A program made the translations under genes and the position numbers. The notes beneath the pieces were generated by a model that was not told the origin of the DNA, ran no database searches, and saw nothing but the letters and a program-made list of their open reading frames with translations. From an uncultured Methanobrevibacter sp. (GTDB taxonomy: Archaea > Methanobacteriota > Methanobacteria > Methanobacteriales > Methanobacteriaceae), in the NCBI RefSeq assembly GCF_902764455.1, contig NZ_CACWVY010000004.1:1-64000 (forward strand): DNA of 64,000 nt, written 5' to 3'. Each line of letters begins with the position of its first letter. The stretch's first letter is position 1. Below are positions 35,921 to 52,306 of this stretch, one piece after another.

Positions 35921-38900
35921 ATGAAATTTAAAAGATATATATTACATTTTTTCATATTGATTGTGTTATTGTTTTCAGTTTCTGCAATTGCAGCTTCTGA
36001 TTTAAATGATTCAGTCAATGTGGATGTTTTAAAGGATGTTTCTGTAAATAAAGGAACATACAGTGACTTTTATTATGATAGCTTCAATGAAAGTGAAAAT
36101 TTTAATCTTGAAAAAGATTACATATTTAACAATCAAAGTGATTCGGCTTTTGTTGGCGGGATTGGAATTAGCAAGAAAAATTTTGTAATTAACGGAAATG
36201 GCCATACAATTGACTGTAACAACCAGGCCAGAGCACTCAAATTTAATGAAACAGGTACAATTAATAATTTAATTATCAAAAATGGTGTTCATGAAAAAGG
36301 TTCAGCAATTTTATCGTATTCCACTTTAACATTAAATAATGTAACTTTTATTAACTGTTCATGGAATGAAAAAAATTCAGGTGCCGTTTATGTAGATGAA
36401 ACAACATTAAATATCAATAACTGTAAATTCATTGATAATGCAGGAGGAGAAGGAGCTTCAATAACTGCTCTTGACTCTTCTGTAAACATTGACAAATCTA
36501 CATTTGAAAGCAACTCCGATAAAATTATTAAGGGCCAAATTTATCTATACAATACAAATACAACCATAACAGAGTCTGACTTTTCAAACACAGTATCCAA
36601 ATATGCAACTGCAATATTTGCTGAAGGTGAAGGAAATTTAAATATTTCAAAATCCAAATTCAAAAACCTCCATGCAAATAAAACTGCCGGTGCAATAGCT
36701 GCAAAATTACTGGACAGTTTAATAATATCCCAATGTGAATTTGACAATATATCCAGTGAAAAAAATGGCGGTGCAATTTATGCAGACATCAACGGAAATT
36801 CAAAAGACGGCATAGGATTTGTTAAGATTACTTTCTGCAGTTTCAATAAATGTTATTCTGAATTTGGAGGAGCAGTTCTCCAATTGGCCGGAAACCTGAC
36901 CATTTCTAATTCAAATTTCACATCCAATAAGGCGGAATATGACGGAGGTGCAATTTATACCAGTTTTGCAGATGTGGAAATTATAAATTCAAAATTCATA
37001 TCCAACACATTGGTTGATGATGTATCCTATGGTGGAGCAGGTTATTTTGATAAGGGCAACATTACAATTAGGGAAAATATATTTAAAGACAATTTCGGAT
37101 TAAACGTTTCAACAATTTACGGATATGATTCAAATTTAAACCTCCAAAACAACTACTTCAACAACCCATCCAATGTCACAAGCATATACACAGTATTTGG
37201 AAAAGTAATCTGTGATGATAAAAATAATTTTACAAATGACCGGTTATCCTTTAACAACACCAATTACAACTATAACTTTGAAAATACTGCAAAGGAATTA
37301 ATATTACTTAACAACAGTCTTTCATTTGATGAACTGCCTGAAAAATTTGATTTAAGACAGTACGGTTGGGTTACCCCTGTTAAAGACCAGGGATTTATAG
37401 GATCCTGCTGGGCATTTGCCAGTCTTGCGGCATTGGAATCAGCATTGCTTAGATATGCCAATGTTACTTATTCATTATCTGCAAATAACATGCAAAATTC
37501 AATGCTTCAGTATTCAAAATATGGAATTTTAAGAACTGTTGAAGGGTCAACTACCTTTGCTGCCCAGACATATCTTGTTGACTGGTTGGGAATTTTCCCT
37601 GAAGAATATGACGGATATGATGAACTTGGAAAAATATCTCCTTTGTATATAACACCTGAAGACATTCACGTTCAAAATACCGTTGTAATTCCTGCAAGAA
37701 AAGGTCCAGAAGACAATGATTTAATTAAAAATGCATTAATCAAGTATGGTGCTGTAGCAACCAGCCACAATTCAGAATTTGACAAAAACAAATATTTCAA
37801 CACATCAAGTTCTGCACAATATTATTACGGAAAACAAGGAGCAATCCATGCAGTTTGTATTGTAGGATGGGATGATAACTATTCAAAATATAATTTCTTA
37901 AATACTCCTCCTAAAGATGGTGCATGGATTGTTAAAAACAGCTGGGGAAGCAATTGGGGAGATGGCGGATATTTCTATGCATCTTACTATGACACTTCCA
38001 TTGCATATTCCTATAATGCAGCTTTCATAATAAATAATGACACATACGACAGGATTTATCAATATGACCTTGGGGGAACTTATTCAACATTGGATTATGC
38101 CGACACTTACGCCAACATATATACAGCGGAAAAAGATGAACTGATTGCGGCTGTGGGAACCTTCTTTGAAAAAAATGCTACAAAATATCAGTTTACAATA
38201 TCCGTAAATGACATTGATGTCCATACTCAAAAAGGCATAAGTAATGTTGAAGGATATGAAACCATCAAACTAACTAAACTTGTCCAAATTAAAAAGGGTG
38301 ATGTTTTCAGAGTAACATTTGAAAGTTATAAAACTCCTACTGTATTAAATCTTAGAATTCATCCTCAATTCGGCAAATCTTTAGTAAGTGAAGACAATGA
38401 AATCTGGAATGATCTGGCAAATATAAATAGTGTAGCTATATTAAAAGCCTATACTGTTTCTGAGATGAATATCACAGACAATCTTGTTAAATTTTACGCC
38501 AATGATACACCATTCATTGCCAGAGCCGGTGCAGGCGAAGATGTTATATTTGAAATCAACAACAAAACATACACTGTTAAAGCAGATGAGAAAGGTGTGG
38601 CCAAACTTGAAATAGACTTCAGTCCCGGAAGATATGTTATCACAACAAATTACCGCAACACCTCCCTTGTAAATTATATCATAATTAAAAACAGCACAAT
38701 CATTTCGTCAAATGCTCAAAAAATGTATAATGACAATTATGATTATAAACTGCAGGTATTGGATAATGCTGGAAAGCCTTTGAACAATACCAAAGTTGAA
38801 ATAAGCATCAATGGCAAACCTGCTAATTACACAAGTGCCAGTTCAGGAAATATAACCATCAATTTCAAAAAATTGACAACCTCACAGATAATTACAGTGA

Positions 38901-39484
38901 AAAATCCAGTATCTGGTGAAATAAAAACAACCAATATTAAAGTGCTTTCAAGGTTTAGCGGTGCCAGCAATGTTGTAATGTATTACTTTGACGGATCCAA
39001 GTTCAAATCAAGAATTGTTGGAGATGATGGTAAGTTCGTAGGTAAAAACCAGGCTGTAACCATCAAACTTAATAAAAAAACATATTCAATAAAAACTGAT
39101 GCCAATGGATATGTCACATTAAAAATACCTAACACAGTTAAACCAGGTTCTTACAAATTAACTGCTACCTACAAAGGTCAAACTATTTCCAAAACAGTTA
39201 AAGTAAAACAAAACCTCAAAACCAATAAATATACAGTTAAGAAAACTTCTAAAAAACTAACTGTTAAAGCAACACTCAAAAACGGTAAAAATGCTCTTAA
39301 AGGCAAAAAAGTAACATTGAAAGTTAATGGAAAAACATTTAAAGCAACAACCAATAAAAAAGGAATTGCTCAATTTACCATTAATAAAAATGTTATTAAA
39401 AAACTGAAAGTTGGTAAAACATACACCATGAAGGTTACATACATTAAAAACACTGTAAAAACAACTTTAAAAGTTAAACGCTAG
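35921..39484 (+). CDS. Adhesin-like protein with papain-type (C1) peptidase domain
   Basis: 1187 residues. Signal peptide (FFILIVLLFSVSAIAAS); a right-handed beta-helix region to about residue 450 with repeated NGGAIY/GGAVLQ and NNxF turns; a papain-fold peptidase at about 473-690; then Ig-like units and a lysine-rich tail. The peptidase has the oxyanion glutamine in VKDQG, the nucleophile in GSCWAFAS (about 495), histidine in GAIHAVCIVGW (about 643) and asparagine in IVKNSWGSNWG (about 672), so it should be active. GGAG lies seven bases before the ATG. Likely wall-bound; may cut host or microbial surface protein, or process other adhesins. Confidence 0.85.
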   Translation: MKFKRYILHFFILIVLLFSVSAIAASDLNDSVNVDVLKDVSVNKGTYSDFYYDSFNESENFNLEKDYIFNNQSDSAFVGGIGISKKNFVINGNGHTIDCNNQARALKFNETGTINNLIIKNGVHEKGSAILSYSTLTLNNVTFINCSWNEKNSGAVYVDETTLNINNCKFIDNAGGEGASITALDSSVNIDKSTFESNSDKIIKGQIYLYNTNTTITESDFSNTVSKYATAIFAEGEGNLNISKSKFKNLHANKTAGAIAAKLLDSLIISQCEFDNISSEKNGGAIYADINGNSKDGIGFVKITFCSFNKCYSEFGGAVLQLAGNLTISNSNFTSNKAEYDGGAIYTSFADVEIINSKFISNTLVDDVSYGGAGYFDKGNITIRENIFKDNFGLNVSTIYGYDSNLNLQNNYFNNPSNVTSIYTVFGKVICDDKNNFTNDRLSFNNTNYNYNFENTAKELILLNNSLSFDELPEKFDLRQYGWVTPVKDQGFIGSCWAFASLAALESALLRYANVTYSLSANNMQNSMLQYSKYGILRTVEGSTTFAAQTYLVDWLGIFPEEYDGYDELGKISPLYITPEDIHVQNTVVIPARKGPEDNDLIKNALIKYGAVATSHNSEFDKNKYFNTSSSAQYYYGKQGAIHAVCIVGWDDNYSKYNFLNTPPKDGAWIVKNSWGSNWGDGGYFYASYYDTSIAYSYNAAFIINNDTYDRIYQYDLGGTYSTLDYADTYANIYTAEKDELIAAVGTFFEKNATKYQFTISVNDIDVHTQKGISNVEGYETIKLTKLVQIKKGDVFRVTFESYKTPTVLNLRIHPQFGKSLVSEDNEIWNDLANINSVAILKAYTVSEMNITDNLVKFYANDTPFIARAGAGEDVIFEINNKTYTVKADEKGVAKLEIDFSPGRYVITTNYRNTSLVNYIIIKNSTIISSNAQKMYNDNYDYKLQVLDNAGKPLNNTKVEISINGKPANYTSASSGNITINFKKLTTSQIITVKNPVSGEIKTTNIKVLSRFSGASNVVMYYFDGSKFKSRIVGDDGKFVGKNQAVTIKLNKKTYSIKTDANGYVTLKIPNTVKPGSYKLTATYKGQTISKTVKVKQNLKTNKYTVKKTSKKLTVKATLKNGKNALKGKKVTLKVNGKTFKATTNKKGIAQFTINKNVIKKLKVGKTYTMKVTYIKNTVKTTLKVKR

Positions 39485-42594: not shown

Positions 42595-42676
42595 TTTTTA
42601 GCCTCATTATCTATATTTATCTCAAATAGTATAAAAAATTATTAGTGATGAAAAAACATACTATTATTTGATTACT

Positions 42677-43969
42677 ATGAAACGAAAAGAAATTGTATTA
42701 TTCATGATTGTTGGTACAGGAGTTAATTCAGATACAAAGGAAAAAGGTTACAGATTACTTGCAAATAAATTATATTCAACCATTAACAAAATACATCCAA
42801 ACTATGTGGTATTTTTCGCATCTGAACAGTCCCGTGAAACAATAAAATACATTGAGGAAATATTTGAAAGAGACAATGATGAATTTAAAATTAATGAAGA
42901 TTATGAGATTGCTGCCATTGAAGCCATAGATGATTTCAACATGTGCTTCGAGACTTTTGAGAGAAAAATATGGAAATTTGATTTTGGAAAAAATAACAGC
43001 AAATATCACATCATTATGGACTATACCTCCGGAACAAAAACAATGTCAGCCGCCATGGCATGCTGCGGTATGTTTTACTCAAAAGACCTGATTTCAGTAA
43101 GCGGTGACAGATCCACAGGTGAAGTTTCAGCGGGAACAGAAATTTTAAATTACCAGAACCTCTACAAAATATATGACAAGTTCTCCTTAATGAGAACAAG
43201 ATATAACTTTAATGCTAATCGTTTCATGGCATGCATTGATATTTTGAACTATATTGTTGATTTGAATATACATAAAAAATCCTTTTTAAACCTGTGTAAG
43301 GCATATTATTCCTGGGACAATATGGAATTTGAGGAAGCATATGAATATTTAAGAAATGTTGACTCCACACAGATAGAGTTTGTTGAAATCACCGATGACA
43401 TCAAGTTCAACTTGAAGGCATTGGGCGCTATTGTAAATTCAAGATCAGAAAATCTCAAGAACTGCTATATCCTTGCAAGTATTATCAACAATGCAGTTAG
43501 AAAAGCTGAAGAGTACAAATATGATGATGCAATTGCCCGATTATACAGATCTTTTGAGTTGATTGCACAAATTGAACTGACCAAATATGACCTTGAAAGC
43601 TCAAACATTGACATTTCCATACTTAAACAAAACAATGTCTCCGAAGAGTTCATTCACGACTTGGAAAATAACCTGGAAGACGGAAAAATAAGAATTGGGT
43701 TAGTTAAGGATTTTCTGCTTTTAAATGAATTGGGAAATGATTTAGGCAAGTATTATGTGGAAAATGAGTCTAAAATTAAGGACTTAACACGTAAAAGAAA
43801 CTATTCCATTTTAGCCCATGGTCTTGAATCACAGTCAAAAGAGGACTTTGACAAATTCCTCGAAGTCGTTCTTGACTTATCATATAAACTTGACAAGGAC
43901 ATGAAGAAATTCTTAAAGCAAACCAAATTCGCCAAATTTGATTTAAGACTTGAAATCAATATTTCCTAA
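42677..43969 (+). CDS. Stand-alone CARF-HEPN protein (TIGR02710 family, CRISPR-associated type)
   Basis: 430 residues. The N-terminal 150 residues are a CARF-like domain: FMIVGTGVNSDTKEKGYRLL, YVVFFASEQSRETIKYIEE and HIIMDYTSGTKTMSAAMA (about residue 114 onward) are the ligand-loop motifs of the TIGR02710 group. The C-terminal domain has RKRNYSILAHG near residue 375, which fits the HEPN ribonuclease pattern R-x4-6-H. CARF-HEPN proteins are RNases switched on by cyclic oligoadenylate from type III CRISPR systems. No cas gene or CRISPR array is in this window. The ATG at 42677 follows TTGAT by four bases, matching the local SD spacing. Confidence 0.8.
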   Translation: MKRKEIVLFMIVGTGVNSDTKEKGYRLLANKLYSTINKIHPNYVVFFASEQSRETIKYIEEIFERDNDEFKINEDYEIAAIEAIDDFNMCFETFERKIWKFDFGKNNSKYHIIMDYTSGTKTMSAAMACCGMFYSKDLISVSGDRSTGEVSAGTEILNYQNLYKIYDKFSLMRTRYNFNANRFMACIDILNYIVDLNIHKKSFLNLCKAYYSWDNMEFEEAYEYLRNVDSTQIEFVEITDDIKFNLKALGAIVNSRSENLKNCYILASIINNAVRKAEEYKYDDAIARLYRSFELIAQIELTKYDLESSNIDISILKQNNVSEEFIHDLENNLEDGKIRIGLVKDFLLLNELGNDLGKYYVENESKIKDLTRKRNYSILAHGLESQSKEDFDKFLEVVLDLSYKLDKDMKKFLKQTKFAKFDLRLEINIS

Positions 43970-46449: not shown

Positions 46450-46725
46450 CTATTTTAAAACTAAATTAGCTGATTTGCTAATAGCTTTGTAGGTGCTGTC
46501 TCCTGCGAATTTGACAGTGACTTTGTGAGTTCCTTTAGTTGTAAGTTTTATATTTACAGTAGCTACTCCTTTGCTATTGGTTTTTGCAGTGTAGGTTTTT
46601 CCTTTAACTTTGAAAGTTATTTTTTTGTTTTTGATTGCTTTACCTTTAGCAGATTTGAATGTAGCTGTGAATTTTTTGGTTTTAGCTTTTGCTTTATATG
46701 TTTTTTTAGCAGTGGTAAGTTTAGC
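46450..46725 (-). repeat. C-terminal domain repeat shared by three adjacent adhesin genes
   Basis: The last ~270 bases of the coding region recur at about 47974-48245 and 49865-50140. Protein phrases such as KAKAKTKK, GKAIKNKKITF, GKTYTAKTN and KGVAT are nearly identical in all three, while the N-terminal halves have diverged. Such direct repeats could support recombination or gene conversion between neighbours. Confidence 0.65.
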
Positions 46726-47907
46726 AGTCTGTTTTTCAACAGTGATTTTAGCTACTTTATATTGACTTACAACAGAATTATCACCTATAAATACAATTGT
46801 AGCAGAATATTTACCTGCATCTGGAATATTTACCTGGACTTTAACAGTACCATTAGCATCAGTGTTTAAATTGGATTCTTCATTGTTTAAAACAATTGTA
46901 ACTGCTTTATTAGCTAATGCATGGTTAAATTGATCTTTTAAAGTTACAGTTAAATATTTGCCTATTTTACCGTCAACAGCAGTGTTTACAGTTGTGAATT
47001 TTAAACCATTAACATCAATAGTGACGTTTATTTGTTTGGATTGAATTTTATAATCAAAAACAAATGCGGTTCCATTTGATTTAACTATTAAATCATATTT
47101 AATGTTTCCGACTTCACCATCAATTTTGAAATCAAAAGTTTTGTTGGAATTATCACTGAAAGATGCATTTCCAAACTGAGAAGCCATATCAGCGAAGTTG
47201 AACTGACTCATCATGTCTTTAATGTTTAGATTATCAAAACTGGTCATATTGAACTTTTTCATCAATTCTTCCATATTTAATGCATTTGCATTGAAAGTTA
47301 AGTTAGCTAAAAATTTCCCGTCAGCAAAAATACTGAAATCATTACTGGTCATATTGTTGAAAGCAGCATCCATCATAGGGGATTTTACAAAGTAGTCGAA
47401 AACAAATTTATCTGGTTTTGAAACTATTCCCAAATTATATTGAACATCACTTACGTCACCTGCAATTTTAAAATCAAATGTTTTGTTTTCACCGGTGAAA
47501 TTGAAATTATTAAATAAATCTGCGAAGTTTCCGAAGTTGGACATGTTAAGGTCACTTTGATTAAGCATTTTTATAATTTCTGAAACATCATATGTTCCAT
47601 CTGCGTTAGTGAAATTGAATGCAGAAACCTGTTGGCCTCCAGAGTAAATGGTAATTTCAGTTACACCACTACTGGAATTGTCAGATAAAGGAGCATCATC
47701 AGCAACGCTTACAACATCTTCTTCCACATCATTTTCAGCTAAAATTTCAGACGTATCCTGATTTACATCAGTTTCAATAGCTACAACATCATTATCGCCA
47801 GCCACTTCAATAACATCAGACGCATTATCTGATGCGCTTACAGAACTAACTGCAAGTAATGAAATGAAAACTATTGAAAAAATTAATAATATTTTATTAA
47901 ATTTCAA
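46450..47907 (-). CDS. Adhesin-like Ig-domain protein, third gene of operon
   Basis: 485 residues from a TTG at 47907, chosen because TGGAGG lies eight bases upstream and because the paralog at 49839 begins the same way; the longer ATG frame runs through that SD. After the signal (ILLIFSIVFISLLAVSSVSAS) comes an acidic spacer, a Phe/Asn/Met-rich region with two related blocks (TFDFKIAGDVSDVQYNL and TFDFKIDGEVGNIKYDL), an Ig-like unit, and the lysine-rich C-terminal domain (KLTTAKKTYKAKAKTKKFTA through the end) shared by all three operon members. No C-terminal anchor helix. Probably held to pseudomurein by the basic domain. Confidence 0.75.
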   Translation of the reverse strand: MKFNKILLIFSIVFISLLAVSSVSASDNASDVIEVAGDNDVVAIETDVNQDTSEILAENDVEEDVVSVADDAPLSDNSSSGVTEITIYSGGQQVSAFNFTNADGTYDVSEIIKMLNQSDLNMSNFGNFADLFNNFNFTGENKTFDFKIAGDVSDVQYNLGIVSKPDKFVFDYFVKSPMMDAAFNNMTSNDFSIFADGKFLANLTFNANALNMEELMKKFNMTSFDNLNIKDMMSQFNFADMASQFGNASFSDNSNKTFDFKIDGEVGNIKYDLIVKSNGTAFVFDYKIQSKQINVTIDVNGLKFTTVNTAVDGKIGKYLTVTLKDQFNHALANKAVTIVLNNEESNLNTDANGTVKVQVNIPDAGKYSATIVFIGDNSVVSQYKVAKITVEKQTAKLTTAKKTYKAKAKTKKFTATFKSAKGKAIKNKKITFKVKGKTYTAKTNSKGVATVNIKLTTKGTHKVTVKFAGDSTYKAISKSANLVLK

Positions 47908-47973
47908 ATTTATTCCTCCATAAAAAAAATTAAAGATGAAATTAAATTTTAATTTCATCATAAAGTTCGAATT

Positions 47974-49839
47974 TTATTTAAAAATTAATTTACCTGCTTT
48001 GCTAACTGCTTTGTAGATGTTGTCTCCTGCGAATTTAGCAGTGACTTTGAAAGTTCCTTTTTTGTTGAGTTTTACTTTAATAGTAGCAACACCTTTAGCA
48101 TTAGTTTTTGCAGTGTAGGTTTTTCCGTTAACCTTGAAGGTTACTTTTTTACCTTTAATTGCTTTACCATTAGAAGTTTTTAATGTAGCTGTGTATTTTT
48201 TGGTTTTTGCTTTTGCTTTATATATTTTTTTAGCTACAGTGAGTTTGGTAGCTTGCTTATTGACAGTAACTTTAGCTATGTCGAATGCACCGTTATAACT
48301 ATCATCCTGCAATAAAGCCACAGTACAGGTATAGGTTCCTGCTTTTGCAATGTTTACTGGTAATTTTGCAACTCCGTCTTTATCAGTTGTTACATTGTAT
48401 TTTTGACCATCGATAGAGATTTGCACAGTTTTATTGTTTAAAACATTACCTAACTCATCTTTTATAGTAGCAGTGAAATCTTTGCTTATTTTAGCAGTAG
48501 CTGTGATATCTTTTGCATCAATTGCAACATTTACTTTATTAAGAGATACAACAAAATCAAAGCTTTTATTGGTTGAAGTACCATTTACAGTGCTTTTAAG
48601 CAATAAATTATGATTTCCATTTACTAAATTAGCAAATGAAACTTTTCCAGTACCATTTTCATTAAGAGCTACATCATTGCTTTGTTTACCGTCTACACTA
48701 GCAGTAACCATAATATTTGGTATTGGATTGCCGTATTTATCCACTACGGTTATAGTTACAACAGTATCATTTCCGAGGTTTTTAGGAAGAGCAATGTCTG
48801 CGAAGTAAACAACATCTTCAAGATAAGCAATTAAAAGATTGGATGTGACATTTGTAGTGTTGTAGTTTCTATTGGATAGGAAAGTTGTGGTTACATTATA
48901 ATTTCCAGGGTTGAAAATGTAATCGAAAGATACAGTCATCATGCTTTCCATTGGATTGCCTGATCCGTTACCGCCGAACATTTCTTCCCAGTTCATGCCT
49001 CCGCTTCCATTGAACATTCCTGTCCAATTCATATTCATCATTTCAGTCCAGTTAAATGTTCCGTTACCGCCGAACATTTCTCCCCAGTTCATGCCGCCGG
49101 AGTCTCCTCCCATCATAGCACTCATCATTTCTTCCATACCCATGGAACTAAAGATACCTATAATGCCAGTAAAATCAAATTCAGCACTGCCGATACCGTA
49201 AACAACTTTTACTCTTTTACTTAAGCTATCGGATGCCCATGTTATGGTCACAACAGCTTCACCAGATAATTTATTGCCGTTTTTATCAGTTACATTAATA
49301 GGAACTGTAACATTCTGATATAAATCAACAACAATATCATCAACATTTATAATAGGAGTTGCTTTTGTAACATAGAAAACTGCATCTTTAGTTAAAATTT
49401 TATCTGTTCCATTTATTAAAGTAGCTTTAACATAATGTCTTCCTACTTCATAATCTCCTAAAGGTAATTTAATTTCTGACTGACCAGAAGTAGGATTTAT
49501 AGGTGCTTCTTCTACTATATAATTACCATCAACATATATTTCAACACCACTTTCGTTATAGTTAATAGTACCAGTGTTGTCAACGACAGTAACATTGATA
49601 GATACTTGTTCATCATACGGTACATCTTCAACAATTATATTCATATCTACATCAGATGCATTATCTGATAATACTTCATTTTGATTTTCATCAACACCAA
49701 TAAGTTCTATTTCACTATCATCAGCAGATACCTTCATGATATCTGTTACATCATTACTATCAGAAGCACTTACAGCACTAACAGCAAATACTGAAATAAG
49801 AACCATGAAAATAATTAGAAAAGTTTTATTAAATTTCAA
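47974..49839 (-). CDS. Adhesin-like Ig-domain protein with Met/Gly/Trp-rich insert, second gene
   Basis: 621 residues starting at a TTG after AAGGAGG (spacing seven). Signal peptide (FLIIFMVLISVFAVSAVSAS), acidic spacer, several Ig-like units, and the lysine-rich C-terminal domain. One Ig unit is interrupted by about 60 residues of low complexity around residues 230-300, with repeats of GNGxxNWxEMFGGNG and MMSAMMGGD. This insert is unusually rich in methionine, tryptophan and glycine, unlike the rest. It is 24 bp downstream of the gene at 49865 and 66 bp ahead of the one at 47907, so cotranscription is likely. Confidence 0.75.
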   Translation of the reverse strand: MKFNKTFLIIFMVLISVFAVSAVSASDSNDVTDIMKVSADDSEIELIGVDENQNEVLSDNASDVDMNIIVEDVPYDEQVSINVTVVDNTGTINYNESGVEIYVDGNYIVEEAPINPTSGQSEIKLPLGDYEVGRHYVKATLINGTDKILTKDAVFYVTKATPIINVDDIVVDLYQNVTVPINVTDKNGNKLSGEAVVTITWASDSLSKRVKVVYGIGSAEFDFTGIIGIFSSMGMEEMMSAMMGGDSGGMNWGEMFGGNGTFNWTEMMNMNWTGMFNGSGGMNWEEMFGGNGSGNPMESMMTVSFDYIFNPGNYNVTTTFLSNRNYNTTNVTSNLLIAYLEDVVYFADIALPKNLGNDTVVTITVVDKYGNPIPNIMVTASVDGKQSNDVALNENGTGKVSFANLVNGNHNLLLKSTVNGTSTNKSFDFVVSLNKVNVAIDAKDITATAKISKDFTATIKDELGNVLNNKTVQISIDGQKYNVTTDKDGVAKLPVNIAKAGTYTCTVALLQDDSYNGAFDIAKVTVNKQATKLTVAKKIYKAKAKTKKYTATLKTSNGKAIKGKKVTFKVNGKTYTAKTNAKGVATIKVKLNKKGTFKVTAKFAGDNIYKAVSKAGKLIFK

Positions 49840-49864
49840 TTTAAATCCTCCTTAAACAAAATAA

Positions 49865-51721
49865 TTATTTTATAGTCAATTTACCTTTTTTACTAAGCGC
49901 TTTGTAAGTATCGTCTCCTGCAAATTTAGCTGTGAAAGTGAATTTACCTTTTGTAGTGAGTTTCACTTTAACAGTAGCTACACCTTTAGCATTGGTTTTA
50001 GCAGTGTAGGTCTTACCTTTAACACTAAATGTTATTTTCTTGTTTTTGATTGCTTTTCCTTTAGCAGACTTGAAAGTTGCTGTTAGCTTTTTGGTTTTGG
50101 CTTTTGCTTTGTATGATGCACTTTTGGTTGTGAGTTTAGCAGTTTGTTTAGTTACAGTGACTTTAGCTATATCAAATACACCATTATATGCATCATCACC
50201 TAAATAAGCAATAGCACAGGTATAAACATTAGCTTTTGCAATATTGAGTTGTATTTCAGCAGCTCCATTTTCATTTGTAGTTGCATCGTATTTTTCACCA
50301 TTTATTGAGATTTGTACAGTTTTATTGTTTAAAATATTACCGAACTCATCTTTTAAAGTAGCAGTGAAATATTTGCCGACTTTACCATCGACTGCAGTAT
50401 TTACAGCAACAACAGACATGTCATTAGCTTCAAATGCAAGGTTTACTTTTGGAATAACTATGCTAAAGTCAAAGGTCTGATTAGTTATGTTGCCTGTGGC
50501 ATTAGTACTAACTAATAATTTATGATCACCAGTGACTAAATTGTCAAAAGTAACTGTTGCCATTGCATTATCATCTAGGGTTGCGTTTACTTCCTGATTG
50601 TCGTCAACAATTGCTGTTACATCTATTTTTGGCATAGGATTTCCGTATTTGTCCAATGCTATGATGGTTACAATTGTTTTGTCTCCTTTGTTTTTAGGAG
50701 AGGTAATGTCTGTTACAAAGAAAACATCACTGTTGTAAACAACAGTAAGATTAGTGTTATTTTCAGCTTCATTATAATTTCTGTTTGACAGGAAAGTTGC
50801 AGTTATATTGTATGTTCCAACCGGTAAAAAGTAAGTGAATTTAACAGCACTGCTTCCGGATGCGAAAGGACCATAACCTCCGCCTCCGTAAGGGCTGGAT
50901 CCGTTACCGGTTCCATTAATCATATTTTTGATATCTGATATGTTGAATTTCATGGTAGAGTTTTGGCTGGAGTTACCTCCTCCGAATGTTGAATTCCAGT
51001 CGGTATCACCGCCCATCATGCCCATCATGTTACCCATCATATCCGCCATATCAAAGGTTGCTTCAGCACTTCCGTTGATAATTTTTGCATATTTGCTTAT
51101 GCTGTTTCCAGGGAAGATTATTGTTACAATAGCGTCCCCAGAGACTTTTTTACCATTGCGATCAGTAACATTTACCGGTACTTTAACACCTGCTCCGATT
51201 ATTGCAGTAACGTTTTCAAGAACTACAATAGGGTTGGCTTTTTTAATACTGAATACAGTACCAGCAGTTGCGATTTTATCGGTTCCACTGATTAATGTTG
51301 CTTTAACATAATGAGTGCCGACTTCAAAAGCTCCTATTTCAAAAGCATATTCGTATTTGCCTTCAGAAGATACTGTAACATCAGCTACATGTTTTCCATC
51401 AACATCTATACCGACAGTACTATTGTCAAAGTCAATTGAACTGGTATTGTCGACAACAGTACCATTTACAGTTATCTGTTCATCATATGTTTTATTCTCA
51501 ACATTGACATCAATTTCTATATCTTTGGCATTACCCTCATCAGCGGATAACACTTCATTTGTATTTTGATTTTCATCAATTTCAAGGGTTTGTATTTCAT
51601 CATCAACAGCAGATAATTCCATAGTATCTGCTATATTATCGCTATCGGAAGCACTAGCAGCACCGATAACGAAAAGTGAAATAAAAACCATCAGCAAAAT
51701 TAAACTCTTTCTGATTTTCAA
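49865..51721 (-). CDS. Adhesin-like Ig-domain protein with Met/Gly-rich insert, first gene of operon
   Basis: 618 residues from the TTG at 51721, which follows GGAGTGAT by four bases; the longer frame begins inside that SD. Signal peptide (SLILLMVFISLFVIGAASAS), acidic spacer, Ig-like units, lysine-rich C-terminal domain. Like its neighbour, one Ig unit has a low-complexity insert at about residues 226-295 (DMMGNMMGMMGGDTDWNST, then glycine-rich YGGGGYGPFASG). The promoter must lie in the AT-rich 585-bp spacer upstream. Likely a wall-associated adhesin. Confidence 0.75.
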   Translation of the reverse strand: MKIRKSLILLMVFISLFVIGAASASDSDNIADTMELSAVDDEIQTLEIDENQNTNEVLSADEGNAKDIEIDVNVENKTYDEQITVNGTVVDNTSSIDFDNSTVGIDVDGKHVADVTVSSEGKYEYAFEIGAFEVGTHYVKATLISGTDKIATAGTVFSIKKANPIVVLENVTAIIGAGVKVPVNVTDRNGKKVSGDAIVTIIFPGNSISKYAKIINGSAEATFDMADMMGNMMGMMGGDTDWNSTFGGGNSSQNSTMKFNISDIKNMINGTGNGSSPYGGGGYGPFASGSSAVKFTYFLPVGTYNITATFLSNRNYNEAENNTNLTVVYNSDVFFVTDITSPKNKGDKTIVTIIALDKYGNPMPKIDVTAIVDDNQEVNATLDDNAMATVTFDNLVTGDHKLLVSTNATGNITNQTFDFSIVIPKVNLAFEANDMSVVAVNTAVDGKVGKYFTATLKDEFGNILNNKTVQISINGEKYDATTNENGAAEIQLNIAKANVYTCAIAYLGDDAYNGVFDIAKVTVTKQTAKLTTKSASYKAKAKTKKLTATFKSAKGKAIKNKKITFSVKGKTYTAKTNAKGVATVKVKLTTKGKFTFTAKFAGDDTYKALSKKGKLTIK

Positions 51722-52306
51722 TATTATCACTCCTTAAATAATATACTTGGTGTTTTTTAAAAAAATCTTCTTTGATGAAAAGATCAATGAATATTCATTC
51801 ATTAATTTTTTCGAAAATTTCCCTTTAAAACGACAAAGTATATTACACAGTTATTAATCTTTTAAGCATTCACATATTTATTTTAAAAATATATAGTATA
51901 TAAAAATATTGATTTTTTTAAAATATATTTAATTATAATGGCTCCAAATAATCAAATGAATAAAAAAATAACAAATTTATATGAAAATTATTAATTTTTT
52001 ACAAAATTCAAAATTAAAAAATTTTTATAAAAATATTTAATTATTAAAAATTATCGATAAATTTACAATTAAAATCAATTTAATTCAATAATGTAACTTT
52101 CACATAGAAAAAAACAGCATAAAAAAAGAATTTATAAAAGAACTTTTGTAAAAATATGACTTTGAAAAATTTAAACAATTTTAAATGTTATAAATTTAAA
52201 AAAATAAAAAATTATTAAACAATTTAACAAAAAAATTTTCACGGAAAAAAAATTTGACACAATTATTATATATTCCGTTTAATATAATCCTTAATGAGGA
52301 AAAAAA
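51722..52306. other. Intergenic region, 585 bp, extremely AT-rich
   Basis: Between the divergent adhesin operon and the MetX-like gene. Long A and T tracts, a TATA-like stretch near 51885-51910, no frame or hairpin that I can support. The A-tracts suggest bent DNA and room for chromatin proteins such as histones. Confidence 0.5.

Follow-up and report, generated by a model that had tools for sequence, protein, structure and literature searches.

CARF-HEPN effectors are taken to need cyclic oligoadenylates made by Cas10. TtCsm6 of Thermus thermophilus (PDB 5FSH, 8JBB, 8JH1) is a cA4-activated RNase and ring nuclease and forms part of a type III system. Basal, ligand-independent activity has been reported for TtCsm6, and HEPN RNases can act without ligand (PMC10897365). 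CARF homologs outside CRISPR loci are abundant (PMC12669027), and operons combining mCpol with a CARF-HEPN gene have been described as abortive-infection modules (PMC8730458). CBASS effectors are a further class of CRISPR-free defence effectors activated by cyclic nucleotides.

The gene analysed here lies in a 64,000-nucleotide stretch of Methanobrevibacter DNA (the window). Its product resembles TtCsm6 in having a CARF-linker-HEPN fold (TM 0.72 to 8JH1) and in retaining equivalents of the motif I Thr, the motif II T/G/K and residues E179, E332, R415, N416 and H422, but the two proteins are only 16-18% identical, the mobile loop of the solo protein is shorter, and its genome contains no Cas10. 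Like the mCpol modules, it represents a CARF-HEPN effector without CRISPR; unlike them, it has no adjacent minimal Cas10 or other partner gene, and mCpol is absent genus-wide. The likeness to CBASS effectors would lie in activation by a cyclic nucleotide, but no CD-NTase adjoins the solo gene, none was found when the genus's other solo-clade genomes were scanned, and the CBASS-like pair of its own genome is on another contig. The nearest relatives outside the solo clade are csm-adjacent TIGR02710/CARF1--CARF_HEPN proteins from other Methanobrevibacter and other archaea, which are 37-43% identical, full-length, and carry the same motifs. Within the literature that we searched, a conserved single-gene clade in genomes without a detectable synthase is new.

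Domain layout, fold and conserved residues

The solo protein of 430 amino acids is encoded by an uninterrupted forward-strand open reading frame (42677-43966, with the stop codon extending to 43969; Table 1), for which an in-frame TTG at 42668 is a possible alternative start. It scored 180.4 bits against TIGR02710 (cut-off 83.9, E 5e-53), covering positions 6-381 of the 384 in the profile, and residues 5-422 matched the PADLOC model CARF1--CARF_HEPN (E 2e-138). The Pfam models for Csm6 HEPN (E 1.9e-28) and Csm6 6H (E 9.6e-8) were matched above cut-off, and the CARF Pfam match fell under its cut-off (E 0.0016). The TIGR02710 score, an R-x4-6-H pair, and a CARF fold with motifs I and II together place the protein in the TIGR02710/Csm6-type CARF-HEPN family.

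Table 1. Positions in the window of the solo gene, its domains and a candidate promoter element
Feature	Position	Strand	Basis
Solo CARF-6H-HEPN ribonuclease gene (Csm6/TIGR02710-like)	42677..43969, stop included	+	ORF, profiles, AF2 model
CARF domain, residues 1-162	42677..43162	+	AF2 secondary structure and conservation; residue roles via PMC10897365
6H helical linker, residues ~163-260	43163..43456	+	Csm6_6H match 166-235; AF2 model
HEPN RNase domain, residues ~261-430, containing E294, R374, N375, H381	43457..43966	+	Pfam, alignments
TATA-like stretch tataaaaaat, possible archaeal promoter	42630..42639, ~38 bp 5' of the ATG	+	By eye only

An AlphaFold2 (AF2) model built with 50 homologs had a pLDDT of 90.7. 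Its best PDB matches were all Thermus Csm6 structures, the first being the cA4-bound one, 8JH1. The HEPN fold is thus predicted with high confidence. CARF motif I is VGTG (residues 12-15), motif II is DYTSGTK (residues 115-121, within the longer stretch DYTSGTKTM), and the mobile loop runs from GDR to GTE (residues 143-155). The HEPN catalytic pair is R374-x6-H381, in the motif RNYSILAH, and both residues were invariant in all 19 aligned orthologs from the genus and in all 50 homologs of a wider alignment. The two findings that would have spoken against the initial annotation, a predicted structure lacking the HEPN fold and close orthologs lacking the R-x-H pair, were thus not obtained. The initial annotation had described a CARF-HEPN protein with intact motifs, and the evidence from TIGR02710, Pfam, PADLOC, the AF2 fold, R374/H381 and motif II all agrees with that description.

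Residue equivalences were assigned by profile alignment to TtCsm6, using the residue roles and mutational data available for that enzyme (PMC10897365). The CARF residues T59, T133, G135, K137 and E179 of TtCsm6 correspond to T14, T117, G119, K121 and E155, and the HEPN residues E332, R415, N416 and H422 to E294, R374, N375 and H381. T14 falls outside the HMM alignment, and its assignment is therefore by motif position only. These residues were invariant in the 19 solo orthologs except for a single K121R, K121 being kept in 18 of 19. The position of TtCsm6 S60 is occupied by Gly in both solo and linked proteins.

Unlike the csm-adjacent relatives, the solo clade has fixed changes in its CARF domain: H30, which is His in 18 of 21 linked relatives, is lost, G48 is replaced by Ala, and D144 stands where the linked proteins mostly have Lys or Arg. 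Positions that distinguish the solo clade were not significantly concentrated in the CARF domain (16 of 162 positions, against 17 of 268 in the rest of the protein; p = 0.19). We therefore rejected the idea of a re-tuned pocket and do not claim a change of ligand.

Distribution and descent of the solo gene

The genome that contains the window is archaeal, 2.75 Mb in size and 98% complete. No match to cas10 was obtained in it with either the Csm1 model or the palm2 model, none to RAMP Cas7 in a profile scan, none to cas1 even at E ≤ 1, and none to mCpol. The solo gene is a real orphan at the level of these genes, so that the orphan status reported initially for the window extends to the whole genome. 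A type III system elsewhere in the same genome, which had been suggested as one maker of the cyclic oligoadenylate, can be excluded within the limits of a 98%-complete assembly. By gene content the gene also does not qualify as a type III accessory effector (Csm6 sensu stricto), which is expected beside cas10 and csm/cmr genes or at least in the same genome as these.

Intact orthologs were found in 20 of 67 genomes of the window's genus, including its own, with 67-78% identity, and broken copies in three more, that is, at 3 of 23 loci. The copy in G010 was counted as intact because the stop reported in it is its own terminal codon. Orthologs of 62-66% identity occur in a second Methanobrevibacter group of seven genomes, among them M. 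olleyae SIG14 and sp. 87.7, the latter with a broken copy. As these seven genomes were absent from the genus search, the second group appears to lie outside the window's genus. Where relatives of the solo gene come from named organisms, these are Methanobrevibacter, chiefly of the rumen and gut of ruminants.

cas10 was missing from 18 of the 20 genus genomes with an intact copy and from all seven of the second group, hence from 25 of 27 altogether, and the RAMP scan agreed. A real cas10 accompanies an intact solo copy only in G004 and G052. Across the genus, where a Cas10 palm was detected in 10 of 67 genomes (nine strong matches and a weak relic in G059), the solo gene and cas10 were distributed independently (Fisher p = 1). 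The cas10-linked relatives show the reverse pattern: every one that could be checked is in a cas10-positive genome, and most are beside cas10. All eight genus genomes with linked CARF-HEPN copies were cas10-positive, as were all eight genomes tested that carry more distant homologs. At ten more distant homolog loci cas10 lay within the fetched flank; some distant loci are on short contigs and were left out of this judgement.

In a maximum-likelihood tree the solo proteins formed a single monophyletic group (support 100/100) on a long stem of 0.62, nested among the cas10-linked relatives from Methanobrevibacter (support 100/97). Most simply, the gene left a type III locus once, before the divergence of the two groups, and has been under constraint since. 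Strong purifying selection on the solo gene was indicated by dN/dS values of 0.08-0.17 (median 0.11) in eight unsaturated pairs; dS was saturated in most pairs, in keeping with deep divergence. In all, 26 solo copies are open, either full-length or truncated by contig ends. The gene is nevertheless dispensable, since it is present in about one third of the genus and broken at 3 of 23 loci.

A comparison of gene neighbourhoods showed flanks that vary among loci with no constant partner gene. A conserved neighbour as partner was rejected on this ground. A small neighbour of 114 amino acids, present at four loci, was rejected too, because its homologs occur in 48 of 67 genomes irrespective of the solo gene. 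Among 75 neighbours examined with PADLOC no recurrent defence partner was found, only scattered single matches. At three loci in each group an MFS transporter gene, with roughly 50% identity, is located upstream at a distance of a few genes, a moderate hint that both groups share an ancestral position; the remaining loci have differing flanks. Searches of viral contigs and phage records gave no relatives of the solo gene, and searches of plasmids gave no close one. An origin from a virus, phage or plasmid was rejected, the only matches being distant plasmid homologs in bacteria.

Candidate sources of the activating signal

Known producers of cyclic nucleotides were sought as sources of a signal for the solo protein. 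mCpol (PF18182) was found in 0 of 67 genus genomes and was rejected. The c-di-AMP synthase domain (DAC) was found in 0 of 27 clade genomes and was likewise rejected; the absence of DisA/DAC from these 27 Methanobrevibacter genomes is itself of note, as the domain was detected in the other methanogens used as controls. SMODS matches across the genus consisted of one universal protein of about 457 amino acids per genome, which is most probably the CCA-adding tRNA nucleotidyltransferase. A further CD-NTase exceeded the SMODS cut-off only in the window's own genome and in none of the other 66, and a CD-NTase common to the clade was therefore rejected as the source. The stand-alone Cas10 of G059 was rejected as a synthase acting in trans, as it occurs in a single genome, its palm motif is degraded and its N-terminal half is missing. 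As the known synthases tested are either absent or unshared, no known synthase explains the clade.

The CD-NTase of the window's genome (PADLOC Cyclase, E 2.6e-123) forms a CBASS-like pair with an overlapping S_4TM effector gene (G000:C35, L157:8244-10192, - strand). The pair lies near genes for a tyrosine-type integrase and an HNH protein, and was found in no other genus genome searched.

Two unusual Cas10-like proteins were seen in the course of the search. The one in G059 (G059:C87, L052:5855-6958, + strand) is a C-terminal remnant of 367 amino acids in which GGDD has become SGDT; it sits in a serS/ArsC-like/HAD locus, where G010, a genome of another species, has its solo CARF-HEPN gene. 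G039 encodes a stand-alone Cas10-like protein of 612 amino acids (G039:C15, L066:6389-8227, + strand) with SGEDD in place of the palm GGDD, and no RAMP gene was detected in that genome.

Proposed function and rival explanations

We give an even chance to the reading that the solo gene began as a type III accessory and today encodes a free-standing RNase, activated by a cyclic nucleotide that does not come from a Cas10 of its own. Its product would be a Csm6-like CARF-HEPN ribonuclease of the homodimeric type, no longer tied to type III CRISPR. The CARF pocket would bind cyclic oligoadenylate, or a cyclic nucleotide closely related to it, and binding would switch on the HEPN site (R374/N375/H381), leading to RNA cleavage and growth arrest, probably as an anti-virus response. 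Because the motif I Thr and the motif II Thr and Lys of TtCsm6 are kept, the CARF domain may also cleave its own ligand and so reset the enzyme. The ligand would come not from a resident Cas10, which is absent, but from an unrecognised host nucleotide cyclase or from an invader. An earlier proposal that the protein may answer a different nucleotide signal, in a separate defence or stress response, is compatible with these data; as the pocket residues are those of Csm6 enzymes that bind cA4, a cyclic oligoadenylate may nonetheless be the ligand, with only its source differing.

These rumen methanogens keep a predicted alarm-triggered RNase intact although nearly all of them, the window's genome among them, are without a known alarm synthase, which suggests an unrecognised signal source. 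Purifying selection without a detectable known synthase implies either a new signal-making enzyme or effectors kept on borrowed signals. Either possibility is open to direct test, and the hosts are common rumen methanogens of relevance to methane emission. More tentatively, and as less likely than not, two lineages of Methanobrevibacter may possess a Cas10-independent cyclic-oligonucleotide pathway of defence or stress response, in which a host or invader signal activates a captured single-gene RNase of Csm6 type. Against an autonomous RNase stand the failure to find the ligand-making enzyme among the producers searched, which leaves the signal hypothetical, the type III systems of two intact-copy genomes, which could feed the solo protein, the patchy, sometimes broken state of the gene in the genus, and the basal activity reported for TtCsm6.

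The main rival is that the protein has remained an effector of type III systems, employed only when such a system, of the cell's own, of a plasmid or of a virus, is acquired or temporarily carried, and kept by intermittent selection. We hold this possible but improbable. A Cas10-like gene is present in 9 of 67 genus genomes, two of which have an intact solo copy, the CARF ligand residues are unchanged, and the nearest relatives are cas10-linked; yet 8 of the 9 cas10 genomes already have linked CARF-HEPN paralogs of their own, and the solo gene is neither associated with cas10 across the genus nor accompanied by it in most of its hosts. The lack of relatives of the solo gene on viral contigs and in phage records, and of close ones on plasmids, also speaks against occasional feeding, as does the fact that one genus Cas10 queried against viral contigs found no close relative. 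Feeding by the CBASS-like CD-NTase is very improbable: that enzyme, near an integrase gene, could make a cyclic oligonucleotide read by the CARF domain, but its gene is overlapped by that of a dedicated effector and is confined to one genus genome, and thus cannot explain conservation of the clade.

Ligand-independent action, as a HEPN toxin held by an antitoxin or at the RNA level with the CARF domain as a structural part, is less likely, and we consider it doubtful. The missing ligand source and the CARF changes of the solo clade, such as the loss of H30 and D144 in place of Lys or Arg, would suit such a toxin, but no conserved neighbour is fit to be an antitoxin, the CARF residues for catalysis and binding show no drift but invariance, and the distinguishing positions are not significantly enriched there. 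That the gene is a functionless relic, now decaying, of a type III system lost earlier is highly unlikely. Cas10 remnants such as the one in G059 do occur and three solo loci are broken; the 26 open copies over deep divergence, with dN/dS of about 0.11 and invariant catalytic residues, largely refute this reading.

Other loci were observed in passing. In a phage-like region of G016 (G016:C72, L158:3685-8245, - strand), two genes for PAPS reductases (CysH-like) adjoin type IV-like genes for Csf2 and Csf3; the arrangement resembles type IV-B. The window itself encodes several large secreted, repeat-containing (adhesin-like) proteins (46450-51730, - strand; 35921-39484, + strand), one of which appears by eye to contain a papain-like peptidase domain.
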